Source: a virus
Direction: 5' to 3' (one strand)
DNA: 35,085 nucleotides
Virus record (IMG/VR): IMGVR_UViG_3300042691_015058
Location: 1-35,085 of that record
Made by a program: the position numbers and the translations under genes. The notes beneath the pieces were generated by a model. The model was given only the letters and a program-made list of their open reading frames with translations, searched no databases and was not told the origin of the DNA. Shown here piece by piece: positions 2,772-7,039 of the stretch; position 1 is the stretch's first letter; every line of letters starts with the position of its first letter.

Positions 2772-2979
2772 GTTGCCATGACGACGATAAAGACGATTCT
2801 CTATATTATACGGTTATAGTGAAAAACACATTTGCATATTTTTAAAAACCCGTAAACATCGTCACCATCGTCTTATCGTCTTTTTGTGCCTAATTTGGCT
2901 AAAAACAAAGATTTTATAAAAAAGTAAAAAAAATCATCGTCTTTTATCGTCATGATTTCGTCCTTTATCGAGTAATTAT
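2772..2979. other. ATCGTC hexamer array, candidate replication origin
   Basis: This stretch has no gene. GACGAT occurs at 2783 and 2792, its complement ATCGTC at 2858, 2867, 2875, 2936 and 2946, with a variant TTCGTC at 2957. Within clusters the spacing is 8-10 nt. Between clusters lie very A/T-rich blocks (2821-2850 and 2889-2935). Iterated short sites with A/T-rich DNA directly upstream of a primase-helicase gene are typical of replication origins; the assignment is inference. Confidence 0.5.
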
Positions 2980-3081
2980 TATATTTGTTCATTATCGAAT
3001 CATTCCTGAGGTAGCAGTCAAGAATGATTCCATAGGTTATTACAACCTGCCCGACAGTCTGCTACCTGCCGGGCTTTTTTT
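2980..3081 (+). ncRNA. Putative small self-terminating RNA with kissing hairpin loops
   Basis: A -7 box TATATTTG (2980-2987) predicts a start near 2993. Three hairpins then follow: GAATCATTC/GAATGATTC (2997-3005 with 3022-3030, perfect, 16-nt loop), AGGTT/AACCT (3034-3038 with 3044-3048, 5-nt loop) and GCCCG/CGGGC (3049-3053 with 3070-3074, 16-nt loop) with seven T (3075-3081). The loop of hairpin 1 contains AGGTAGCAG (3009-3017) and the loop of hairpin 3 contains its exact complement CTGCTACCT (3059-3067). Promoter, structure and terminator fit in about 100 nt, 9 nt before the primase start. It may be a free RNA or a leader that controls the replication genes. Confidence 0.6.
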
Positions 3082-3089
3082 ATCCCCTT

Positions 3090-5489
3090 ATGCAAAATGA
3101 ATATTATGATCCTGTAGTAACGGCATTTAAAAACCTGTTTAATGCCAAGGATACACCGCATCACATCAGAATTTCGATTCTTTTAAATCGTATTCAGACA
3201 GGGAATAGTGATTCAAAGGTTAAGATTGAAAGAATCAGAGCCTCCACCAATGATCATGAGATTCAAGAAATTAAGAAATCTCTTCCAGCATTAATGTTCA
3301 ATGGTAAATTTAACACAAGGAATGAACAGGGTATAATCGAACATTCTGGCCTTTGCATCTTTGATTTTGACAAGTATGAATCTGAGGAGGTTCTCAATAA
3401 AGAACGGTTGAGAATTCAAGCTGATAAATTTACTTATGCCTGTTTCTTGTCTCCATCGGGTAAGGGATTAAAGGTTTTGGTTAAGATTCCAAAGTCAAGT
3501 AAAGAAGAGCATTATCGAAGATTTCACGCTTACAAAAATTACATCAATTCAGATTATTTTGATGATGCAAATTCAAATCTTAGCCGTGTTTGCTTTGACA
3601 GTTATGACCAAAGGTTGTTTTGGAGACCGGAATCAAAGGTTTTTGAAAGTATAGAGGCTGAAGAAGAAAAAAATTATACAAAGCACGTTCCGGTTGTTTT
3701 GCTTACTGATACTAGGGCAAAAATTGAACGTATAATGAAATTTGATTTTCAATGTTCATTCGTTTCCGGAAGCAGAAGTAATTATATTTTTAAGGTTGCC
3801 TGTTGTTTTTGCGAATATGACATATCAAAAGATGATGCGGAGAGTTACCTTCTTGATTTTCAAGAAGCTGATTTTAAACAGGATGAAATTATTAGAATTA
3901 TTCGTTCAGCCTACAAGAAGTCTGAAAACAATACAAAGAAGTTTTTTGAGAATAATCACCTTAAAGAGGTAATAAAGAAAAAGATAAAAGAGGGAAATGA
4001 TGTCAAAGAAATTTCTAAGGAACTGAATGTTGGAGAAGATTCCGTCAAAGATGTCAAGAAAGAAGTTCAAGAATCTGAAACTATATTTTGGAAAATAAAG
4101 AAGACAAGGAATGGTAAGGAGGTTGAGGTAATTAATAATGTTCTCCGTGATTTTTTGGCTTCAAATGGATTTAACAAATATTATCCCGAAAAATCTGAAA
4201 AGTTCGTTTTTGTCAAAATAACACAGAATAAGGTTAAGGTCATTTCAAGCAGTCAAATCAAAGATTTTATATTGAATTGGCTAGATGAGAGAGGTCATGT
4301 TGATGTTTGGAATATGATGACTGGTAATAGAAAATTCTTTCAAGATGACTTTTTGAATTTTGTTCCTCCGATTGATTTGAGGATGCTAAATGATACAAAA
4401 GATGTTTCCTACATTCCTTATCAAAACGGTATTCTTGAGGTAAAGAAAGAGTCAGTAAAACTGATTCAATATCTTGACATTGATCTTTATGTATGGGAAA
4501 ATCAGATAATTAATAGGGATTTTGAATCTTTGGATGATTTTACAAATGATTTTCAAGATTTGGTTTCAAAGGTCACTAATGAAGACCAAGCCCGAACGAA
4601 GGCACTAGAATCAACCATTGGATACCTTATTCATGCTTATAAGGATAAGACTCATCAGAAGGCAGTAATTTTTAATGATCAGGAAATCGATGACAACCCA
4701 AACGGTGGATCAGGCAAATCTCTTTTGGTTACCGCATTGTCAAAATTCCGAAATGTGGTAAAAATTGACGGTAAGCATTTCAATCCGATGAAGTCTGATT
4801 TTGTTTATCAGCGGGTAAATTTAGACACTCAAATTTTAGCATTCGATGACGTTAAAAGAAACTTTGAGTTTGAGCAGTTGTTTGCAATAATCACGGAAGG
4901 TATAACGGTTAACCGAAAAAACAAGGATGAAATATTTATTCCTTTTGACCGATCTCCCAAAGTGGTTATCACCACAAACTATGTAATTGCCGGAGCAGGA
5001 GAAAGTCATGACCGTAGAAGGCATGAGATAGAGTTTTATCAATATTTTCACAAAAATAGAAGTCCGCTAAAGATTTACGGCAAATTGCTTTTTGATCAAT
5101 GGAATAGTTTGGATTGGTCAAAATTTGACAACTACATGATTTATTGTCTTCAGCTTTATTTAAAAAATGGATTGATTGCATCTCCGTCAATTAACGTGGA
5201 GGCTAAAAGATTTATTTCCTCAACCTGTAAAGAGTTTTTTGATTTCATGCATGAGAATTTCATTGAATTGAATAAAGTGATTTACAATTCAGATGCTTAT
5301 CATTTATTCATTAAGGAAAATAGATCATTTAAAGATTTGGATACAAGGAAGTTCATTAAATGGGTCGATGCTTATTGTCTTTACAAGGGATATAAGTTGA
5401 AGAAAGGCAAAGACAACAAAGGTAGGTGGTTAATGATCGTAACCAAGCCAGAAGAAGAAGATCAGTTTGCATTGGATTTAAATGAATAA
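3090..5489 (+). CDS. Primase-helicase (BT4734-type primase domain plus SF3-like helicase)
   Basis: The 799-residue protein probably primes and unwinds phage DNA. Residues about 20-190 look like the BT4734/VirE-N type primase domain: FDFDKY at 91-96 supplies the acidic pair and SPSGKGLK at 121-128 the glycine motif. About 210-275 resembles a PriCT helical region. An HTH-like stretch follows near 290-325 (VKEISKELNVGEDSVKD). The C-terminal ATPase has Walker A NPNGGSGKS at 536-544, acidic FDDV with Asp586-Asp587, and a sensor-like VVITTNY. The start at 3090 is the first ATG after the RNA terminator. The stop abuts the helicase gene at 5489. Presence beside the hexamer array supports an initiator-like role. 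Confidence 0.88.
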   Translation: MQNEYYDPVVTAFKNLFNAKDTPHHIRISILLNRIQTGNSDSKVKIERIRASTNDHEIQEIKKSLPALMFNGKFNTRNEQGIIEHSGLCIFDFDKYESEEVLNKERLRIQADKFTYACFLSPSGKGLKVLVKIPKSSKEEHYRRFHAYKNYINSDYFDDANSNLSRVCFDSYDQRLFWRPESKVFESIEAEEEKNYTKHVPVVLLTDTRAKIERIMKFDFQCSFVSGSRSNYIFKVACCFCEYDISKDDAESYLLDFQEADFKQDEIIRIIRSAYKKSENNTKKFFENNHLKEVIKKKIKEGNDVKEISKELNVGEDSVKDVKKEVQESETIFWKIKKTRNGKEVEVINNVLRDFLASNGFNKYYPEKSEKFVFVKITQNKVKVISSSQIKDFILNWLDERGHVDVWNMMTGNRKFFQDDFLNFVPPIDLRMLNDTKDVSYIPYQNGILEVKKESVKLIQYLDIDLYVWENQIINRDFESLDDFTNDFQDLVSKVTNEDQARTKALESTIGYLIHAYKDKTHQKAVIFNDQEIDDNPNGGSGKSLLVTALSKFRNVVKIDGKHFNPMKSDFVYQRVNLDTQILAFDDVKRNFEFEQLFAIITEGITVNRKNKDEIFIPFDRSPKVVITTNYVIAGAGESHDRRRHEIEFYQYFHKNRSPLKIYGKLLFDQWNSLDWSKFDNYMIYCLQLYLKNGLIASPSINVEAKRFISSTCKEFFDFMHENFIELNKVIYNSDAYHLFIKENRSFKDLDTRKFIKWVDAYCLYKGYKLKKGKDNKGRWLMIVTKPEEEDQFALDLNE

Positions 5490-7039
5490 TGATGAAAAAA
5501 TTAAACTACGAACAATCGGCTTTGCTTCGAAGATTAACTAGTTTTGTGAGTCAAAGCAGTAATGGGATTTTTGGAGTTTATGGTCCGGGTGGCACGGGAA
5601 AAACATTTACCGTTACTAGATTGCCAAATGTTGAAAATTTCATTTTCCTTGCTCCAACAAACAAAGCATCCAAAGAGGTTAATAGGAATTTCAAAGAAAA
5701 TGGAATAAAAAACAAATGCCTAACAGTTGACAGATTTCTTGGGTATAGGTTGACAATGGATGAGAATAACAAACCTGTTGTCAATTATAAAAATTTGGAT
5801 GAATTAGATTTAACTAAGGTTATTGTCATTGATGAAATTTCAATGCTGAATAACAATCATTTTCGGATGATTTTACAGCTATCCATTTTCTGCAAAATAA
5901 TTGCCATTGGTGATTATTTGCAGTTGCCTCCGGTTGAAGAAGAAAAGGATAAATATATTGGAAAAGAAGGGTATCAATGTTCAAGAATTTTTGAAATCGT
6001 TGATGAAAGTTTTGAACTCACAATTCCAAACAGGCAAGGAGAAGACTCTCACCTTTACACAATGATTTCAAGTTTTAGAAGAGAAATGCACAGACTTATT
6101 CCTTTTGGAAAATTTATTGATCATTTCAATAATAATATTGATGTTCAATTATTTGATATTAATTCTAAGGAATTTGCTGATTTTGTACGTAGTGAATCGT
6201 TTACAATTTTGGCTCATAAAAAAAGTTCATTGGCTTTTTTAAGCTATAAAGTTGGATCAATACGAAGGAACGACAAGAATTTTAATATTAAAACAATTAA
6301 AATAGGCTCTAAATATTACTTTGAAAAATCATGTTTTACTAAAGAAAGAACATTTTATACTTCTGAAGTAATTGAAATTACTGACATAATTGAAAAAGAA
6401 GAGGAATTTATTTTCCCTGTTACTGGTCAAAAGTTTAAAGACAAAATAAAATTCGCATCTATCATAGATGAGGATGGTAAAAATTTAGGGCAAGTCATGT
6501 TGCCAAATTCTAAATTTAGAGCAAAAATTAATAGCCATAGGGCTAATCATGCAAAGGTTGAAAAATATTCAAAAGACCAAGTATCGAAAATGAATACTTG
6601 GTACAATGACTTTAAAAACAAATTTGCTCATTTTGAGCCTGTTATAGGAACAACTATCCATAAATCTCAGGGTAGTACCTATGAAAAGGTTTTGATTCCT
6701 GTATTTGATTTTTATGAGCATTATGACAGATATAAAATTTTGAACCAGCTTTTTTATGTAGGAATTTCAAGAGCAAAGACTAAAATCATTTTTGTAAAGG
6801 GGAGGCATAATTTTGGTGATCATAATAAAAGAGTAATTTTTACCGAAGAGGAAAGAAATTTGATAGCATCATTAAATGATTTTTACTGCTCAAAATGTCA
6901 TCATAAATTTATTTCTGATCGTGATTTTGAGATTCATCATGTTATTCCATTAGAATCTCAAGACGCAAGAGGAAATAATTCCATAGGAAATCTGACTGCA
7001 CTTTGTAAACCATGTCACAAAAAACACCATTCTAAATGA
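5489..7039 (+). CDS. SF1 (RecD/Dda-like) helicase with C-terminal HNH nuclease domain
   Basis: The 516-residue protein has Walker A GPGGTGKT at 32-39, Walker B VIVIDEIS at 111-118, motif III GDYLQLPP at 141-148, and TTIHKSQGSTYE with FYVGISRAKTK near residues 390-430, the usual SF1B order. From about 465 an HNH zinc domain follows: CSKC, FEIHHVIPLE with His483-His484, an Asn-rich turn and LCKPCHKKHH. A helicase with an HNH tail is unusual; the tail could act on replication or recombination intermediates or derive from a captured homing nuclease. The gene is clearly A/T-richer than the structural genes. It overlaps both neighbours and belongs to the replication operon. Confidence 0.88.
   Translation: MMKKLNYEQSALLRRLTSFVSQSSNGIFGVYGPGGTGKTFTVTRLPNVENFIFLAPTNKASKEVNRNFKENGIKNKCLTVDRFLGYRLTMDENNKPVVNYKNLDELDLTKVIVIDEISMLNNNHFRMILQLSIFCKIIAIGDYLQLPPVEEEKDKYIGKEGYQCSRIFEIVDESFELTIPNRQGEDSHLYTMISSFRREMHRLIPFGKFIDHFNNNIDVQLFDINSKEFADFVRSESFTILAHKKSSLAFLSYKVGSIRRNDKNFNIKTIKIGSKYYFEKSCFTKERTFYTSEVIEITDIIEKEEEFIFPVTGQKFKDKIKFASIIDEDGKNLGQVMLPNSKFRAKINSHRANHAKVEKYSKDQVSKMNTWYNDFKNKFAHFEPVIGTTIHKSQGSTYEKVLIPVFDFYEHYDRYKILNQLFYVGISRAKTKIIFVKGRHNFGDHNKRVIFTEEERNLIASLNDFYCSKCHHKFISDRDFEIHHVIPLESQDARGNNSIGNLTALCKPCHKKHHSK

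Follow-up and report, generated by a model that had tools for sequence, protein, structure and literature searches.

What is the short, structured element that lies between a cluster of repeats and the first replication gene of this virus, and how might it act on the genes that follow? The DNA analysed (35,085 nucleotides, hereafter the window) is a 35 kb virus contig from IMG/VR that encodes a major capsid protein, and the element had been described in an initial annotation as a single, self-contained small RNA. We found that this single case belongs with a widespread family of leaders, in which the window is placed by position and anatomy. As dozens of related phages keep the arrangement with different letters, it is probably a real, previously undescribed control switch for phage replication.

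Anatomy and surroundings of the element

A −7 box, three consecutive hairpins and an intrinsic terminator had been reported between 2980 bp and 3081 bp; all were present, and the predicted fold was as described (Table 1). Transcription is expected to start at approximately 2992 bp–2996 bp, after the −7 box. Hairpin 1 consists of a perfect 9 bp stem (GAATCATTC, 2997 bp–3005 bp, and GAATGATTC, 3022 bp–3030 bp) and a 16 nt loop, CTGAGGTAGCAGTCAA. Hairpin 2 (AGGTT, 3034 bp–3038 bp, and AACCT, 3044 bp–3048 bp) is contained in the linker, and hairpin 3 has a stem of GCCCG (3049 bp–3053 bp) and CGGGC (3070 bp–3074 bp) with a 16 nt loop, ACAGTCTGCTACCTGC. The 9 nt complement claimed between loops 1 and 3 was exact. 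Folding with RNAfold gave −29.5 kcal/mol for the leader (z = −3.3); hairpin 3 alone had a predicted energy of −11.6 kcal/mol. RNAfold also predicted three extra inner pairs in hairpin 1 (UGA/UCA) and hairpin 3 (CAG/CUG), which leave 8 nt apical loops in both, so that a strict kiss would be of approximately 7 bp; the 9-mer:9-mer duplex of A and A′ alone had a predicted energy of −14.0 kcal/mol.

Table 1. Positions in the window of the leader features and of the neighbouring repeats and genes
Feature	Position (bp)	Strand	Basis or remark
ATCGTC/GACGAT hexamers	2783–2951	+	copies at 2783, 2792, 2858, 2867, 2875, 2936 and 2946
−7 promoter box TATATTTG, Bacteroidota-type, TAnnTTTG	2980–2987	+	sequence
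Hairpin 1 (P0), presents the anti-loop	2997–3030	+	sequence, RNAfold
Anti-loop A AGGTAGCAG	3009–3017	+	exact complement of 3059–3067
Linker CATAGGTTATTACAACCT, contains small hairpin 2	3031–3048	+	sequence, RNAfold
Hairpin 3, terminator stem GCCCG/CGGGC and inner CAG/CUG	3049–3074	+	sequence, RNAfold
Apical-loop partner A′ CTGCTACCT	3059–3067	+	exact complement of 3009–3017
T7 run completing the intrinsic terminator	3075–3081	+	sequence
Primase-helicase (phrog_28855; BT4734-like_N + PriCT_1)	3090–5489	+	first gene of replication operon
Dda/PIF1-like helicase with C-terminal HNH domain	5489–7039	+	next operon gene

A 9 nt complement between two 16 nt loops of the same composition had a probability of 0.0004 when the loops were shuffled. 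When the window leader was dinucleotide-shuffled 20,000 times, no shuffle reproduced in full a descriptor made up of the promoter box, a hairpin with a T-run and an apical loop complementary to an upstream part, and only this leader fitted it among the 18 plus-strand TAnnTTTG sites of the window. Outside the leader, the window had approximately as many sites complementary to loop 1 as expected by chance.

The iterated hexamers noted beside the element were confirmed as seven copies within 170 bp. This cluster is a candidate iteron-like origin, and similar repeats (GTCACG, ATCGTC, TTGTCAT) were found upstream of the primase gene in many relatives. At the end of the gene upstream of the iterons there is a separate terminator-like repeat (2748 bp–2775 bp; CCAGCGCTGACGCTGG followed by T7), which would isolate the leader promoter from upstream transcription. 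The ATG of the primase-helicase gene lies 9 nt past the T-run of the leader and no TAnnTTTG box fits in this gap, so that expression from the leader promoter needs read-through. The control of read-through proposed in the initial annotation was soundly reasoned, as the terminator separates the primase start from the only visible promoter. Elsewhere in the window, 10,133 bp–11,311 bp encodes a ParB-like domain fused to a DNA methyltransferase, and a minus-strand ORF (32,946 bp–33,563 bp) encodes pentapeptide-like repeats that derive from tandem TTGAAGGTTAGCACC-type DNA repeats.

A similarity search of the window DNA against phage records gave no match, and a single-protein search retrieved one contig, L002, and none among genome contigs. 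L002 was the only near-identical contig; its leader was 100% identical to that of the window and it is therefore uninformative on covariation. Alignment of L002 with 2400 bp–3200 bp of the window showed approximately 90% identity in the upstream gene, rising to 100% across the leader, the primase start and most of the intergenic region, a step that is likely to be a recombination boundary. An exact pattern scan of viral contigs with the 9-mers of the window found 15 stretches, approximately the chance number by estimate, and the near-identical contig was the only relevant one.

A family of leaders at the head of phage replication operons

A profile built from the window primase and its 40%-identical homologue retrieved 80 loci, and two further searches brought the total to approximately 240 loci, in 95 clusters of upstream sequence. 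Many clusters had short iteron-type leaders lacking the element, which is thus not essential. A large minority, mutually dissimilar in sequence, had one common plan that runs from a TAnnTTTG box to the start codon of the primase gene: A, linker, B, C, A′, C′, B′, T-run, ATG. In this plan A pairs with A′, the anti-loop being 7–9 nt long and complementary to the apical loop of the terminator, and the terminator hairpin that encloses A′ is made up of B and C. The box opens nearly all members of the family, at a distance of 1–27 nt from the first pairing element. When the clusters were scanned generically for interleaved stems and a T-run, at most 1 in 60 shuffles scored as well in 19 of the 95 (p < 0.02); four of these (L021, L079, L176 and L221) were iteron or simple-terminator cases and were left out of the family. 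A promoter-anchored scan of both strands of 1.4 Mb gave 43 distinct matches, nearly all of them on the leader strand and of the common plan. The spacing from A to B is narrow in leaders without P0 (usually 15–29 nt), and that from P0 to B is approximately 15 nt in those with it.

In the latter, the kissing subclass, A is carried by a 5′ hairpin loop, as in the window. Their conserved linker, AAGGTATTATT, is single-stranded and more conserved than the helices, and a pattern scan of viral contigs based on it found approximately 70 distinct elements; the same motif gave chance-dominated results in genome contigs. Alignment of 26 members showed that 98.5% of cells were paired, compared to 75.9 ± 1.1% in shuffles, and 99.5% in the loop–loop helix, where two-sided changes were seen at six of eight pairs and one-sided changes at none. 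A T-run followed the terminator stem throughout. R1, a covariance model built without the loop–loop helix, identified 97 members in a set of 100 loci. Its matches comprised 22 distinct loop pairs, of which 21 had a complement of 7–9 nt; the exception had a 9 nt match just outside a mis-set loop. R1 also recovered leaders that have no 5′ hairpin (L093, L213 and L086), which makes both classes one family. The A:A′ pairing is, on this comparative evidence, under selection in the related leaders: the loop–loop complementarity, for which the initial annotation had asked whether homologues break it, was kept through compensatory change in many lineages.

The window shows the same arrangement. The −7 box lies directly upstream, the apical loop of the terminator, which in the family is complementary to an upstream part over at least 7 nt, is so over 9 nt and is followed by T7, the anti-loop is presented by a 5′ hairpin, and a replication operon begins after the T-run. 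Hairpin 1 is the equivalent of P0 of the kissing subclass (GGTTC/GAACC and others), and the linker resembles the conserved family linker TAAAGGTATTATTGAACC. The proportions deviate, with a P0 of 9 bp, a terminator stem of 5 bp and an A′ that overlaps the inner stem by 2 nt. The window was left out of the sets from which R1 and a second covariance model, R2, were built. R1 aligned to exactly 2980 bp–3081 bp with a marginal score (15.9 bits, E 0.47), and R2 was likewise marginal on the window leader (13.1 bits, E 5.2). Given these scores we regard the window as a family member by position and architecture, sequence homology being unproven, and the covariation described above comes from relatives that are not close homologues of the window. 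Rfam gave no match at the gathering threshold for the window or 20 relatives, and R2 and the descriptor found nothing in the stretches searched of Leef_1, BT-TP2, Panino, MW202897 and MW202828.

The operon that follows leaders of the kissing subclass includes a small ORF in some cases; its other genes are a DnaD-like loader or DUF6291 gene, a helicase that resembles DnaB or a primase-helicase, and NinG. Leaders of the same plan also occur at the same place in phages with other replication initiators. What the window and the kissing subclass have in common is thus a replication operon rather than a single protein family. The element also precedes other genes, including HNH endonucleases and a methylase-like gene, and L049 and L099 carry several copies with differing A:A′ sequences. 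The cultured Tenacibaculum phage Gundel_1 (NC_062747, L607) has two elements with different loop pairs (16,777 bp–16,893 bp and 33,891 bp–34,001 bp), neither of which is annotated; their −7 boxes are at 16,777 bp and 33,891 bp. One copy directly precedes the primosomal gene gp037, and the other lies approximately 14 nt upstream of the anti-repressor gene gp064. The isolation paper does not list an integrase for Gundel (PMC8776804).

These positions bear on whether the inverted repeats might be single-stranded DNA hairpins at the origin, with the RNA features incidental. The iterons that adjoin the window leader are consistent with such a role. We nevertheless consider it very improbable, as the promoter box, T-run and gene-facing orientation are kept, the element also lies before non-replication genes, and nearly all of the cases examined had it in a 5′-UTR position.

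A second class of leader (class 2) was found upstream of the primase gene in L047, L056, L058, L179, L181, L182 and L234. Here the apical loop of the terminator pairs with a stretch past the T-run, 12–17 nt before the start codon, and several members have the common motif GGAGGCATCC..GTAAAAGG. Class 2 leaders could act on the translation of the read-through mRNA. On the minus strand of L427, an element starting at 5151 bp, upstream of metK in a Flavobacteriaceae MAG, also fitted the descriptor; this may be a leader of the SAM-riboswitch type, its terminator loop being complementary to an upstream stretch.

Proposed attenuation in cis and the alternatives

On balance we favour, with modest confidence, the reading that the leader is a cis transcriptional attenuator of the phage replication operon, locked by loop–loop pairing. 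Transcription would start just past the −7 box, and in the nascent RNA the hairpin presenting anti-loop A would fold first. The terminator hairpin would fold next and its apical loop A′ would pair with A, kiss and terminator forming a compact locked structure at the T-run. Some polymerases would stop and release an RNA of approximately 90 nt and others would continue into the primase-helicase gene, read-through being set by the frequency of A:A′ pairing as the RNA is made. That the window leader is transcribed and terminated, that its loops pair in cis and which way the kiss acts are inferred.

Attenuation is supported by the recurrence of the same box, element, T-run and replication gene in many lineages, by the covariation of the loop–loop helix in related leaders and by the lack of another visible promoter before the start codon, and the narrow spacing of A and A′ in the relatives favours pairing in cis. 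In the family A′ is confined to the apical loop with no overlap with the terminator arms, so that kiss and terminator can coexist. As A′ does not compete with the terminator stem there, we lean slightly towards a kiss that favours termination; the guanidine-IV riboswitch is a precedent for a kissing loop that decides terminator formation, and shows that the effect may also have the opposite sign. A rough length estimate of our own suggests that hairpin 2 must open for the 18 nt linker of the window to span a stacked kissing complex, so that hairpin 2 may compete with the kiss. The position of the class 2 partner, after the T-run, counts against attenuation as it fits translation control equally.

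The main rival to cis attenuation, which we think rather unlikely, is a role in trans like that of the P4 and IsrK RNAs. The terminated leader would accumulate with phage copy number and pair through A or A′ with newly made leaders of the same phage, in the manner of P4 CI, P1/P7 c4 and Gifsy-1 IsrK. The result would be feedback on replication or the exclusion of related phages that superinfect. P4 alpha is a primase-helicase. The P4 CI RNA comes from the leader of a replication operon in which self-complementary segments control termination (PMC4825925), and thus resembles the window leader as a self-complementary leader RNA before replication genes. However, CI is processed from its leader and is an antisense RNA on two flanking sites, whereas in the window leader an anti-loop is matched by the apical loop of an intrinsic terminator. 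In Gifsy-1, IsrK arises among phage regulatory genes as a terminated short RNA that has one promoter in common with a read-through mRNA (PMC4825925); it is a precedent for a terminated leader that acts on its own read-through mRNA, although it does so on translation and no kissing-loop terminator has been described for it. The c4 antisense RNA of P1/P7 has complementary loops and controls an anti-repressor gene (PMC12197685), but it acts around the ribosome binding site, and no match to the c4 Rfam model was found in 2400 bp–3600 bp of the window at E values up to 10 or in 20 relatives at the gathering threshold.

Both partners are present on each leader RNA, A:A′ types vary between lineages and between copies in L049, L099 and Gundel_1 in the manner of specificity groups, and the downstream genes match the targets of P4 CI (replication) and P1 c4 (the anti-repressor, as with gp064 of Gundel_1). 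Against a role in trans, this variation extends to all helices and is not found in A:A′ in particular, and cis pairing should outcompete pairing in trans. Lysogenic immunity is also unlikely, as no integrase was found among the window ORFs examined and R1 found no member in 395 genomes of one Bacteroidota class. The free-standing trans-acting small RNA or dimer of the initial annotation was not supported, the tight partner spacing in the relatives pointing to cis. That the released leader is a sense-strand self-sensor, with RNAs of the same A:A′ type recognising each other in trans, seems to us unlikely.

A different reading is that the locked fold and the linker AAGGTATTATT are recognised by RNA polymerase, by a phage or host factor or by a replication protein, and that this factor sets termination, as at HK022 put or lambda nut sites. 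The single-stranded linker, which is more conserved than the helices, would agree with this, as would the multiple copies per genome before different genes that a common factor would require. No candidate factor was identified, however, and little linker sequence is common to class 1, class 2 and the window; we consider such a binding leader a distinctly unlikely explanation.

Relation to known RNAs and significance

Plasmid copy-control RNAs (ColE1, pT181, IncI) form kissing loops or pseudoknots and lie next to replication genes and an origin, and the initial annotation had likened the element to them. They use a convergent antisense transcript, whereas no conserved antisense promoter was found in the leader family; a search limited to the CAAAnnTA type gave none in 2980 bp–3400 bp of the window, and of 97 family loci only 14 had one. 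For this reason we rejected a free-standing antisense RNA of the copy-control kind. Of the earlier interpretation, the loop–loop pairing and the read-through inference have held, and the trans-acting RNA or dimer and the copy-control design have found no support.

In the guanidine-IV riboswitch a kissing loop beside an intrinsic terminator decides read-through, the kiss opposing the terminator (PMC11611296). The window leader resembles this RNA (mepA) in its loop–loop kiss at an intrinsic terminator. However, guanidine-IV binds guanidine and controls exporters, whereas the leader family has freely varying helices, no Rfam match and replication genes; the window has no guanidine-IV match at the gathering threshold and encodes a primase, not export genes, downstream. 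Type III toxin-antitoxin RNAs are tandem pseudoknot repeats before a toxin gene, in contrast to the single unit before the primase-helicase gene of the window. Attenuators, switches based on kissing loops and leader RNAs of phages have all been described before; kissing or pseudoknotted terminators at the head of phage replication operons were not found in Rfam or in the open-licence literature searched.

Control of replication in Bacteroidota phages is little explored, and a covarying leader that is absent from Rfam and stands at the head of the replication operon offers a testable control point, including in the cultured phage Gundel_1. If the leader were a self-sensor, each lineage would measure its own copy number or exclude close relatives through a private loop–loop code, with need for neither an antisense gene nor a repressor protein. 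If the kiss gates termination, the leader would be a protein-free attenuator made of loop–loop pairing alone, and usable as a design for orthogonal regulators.
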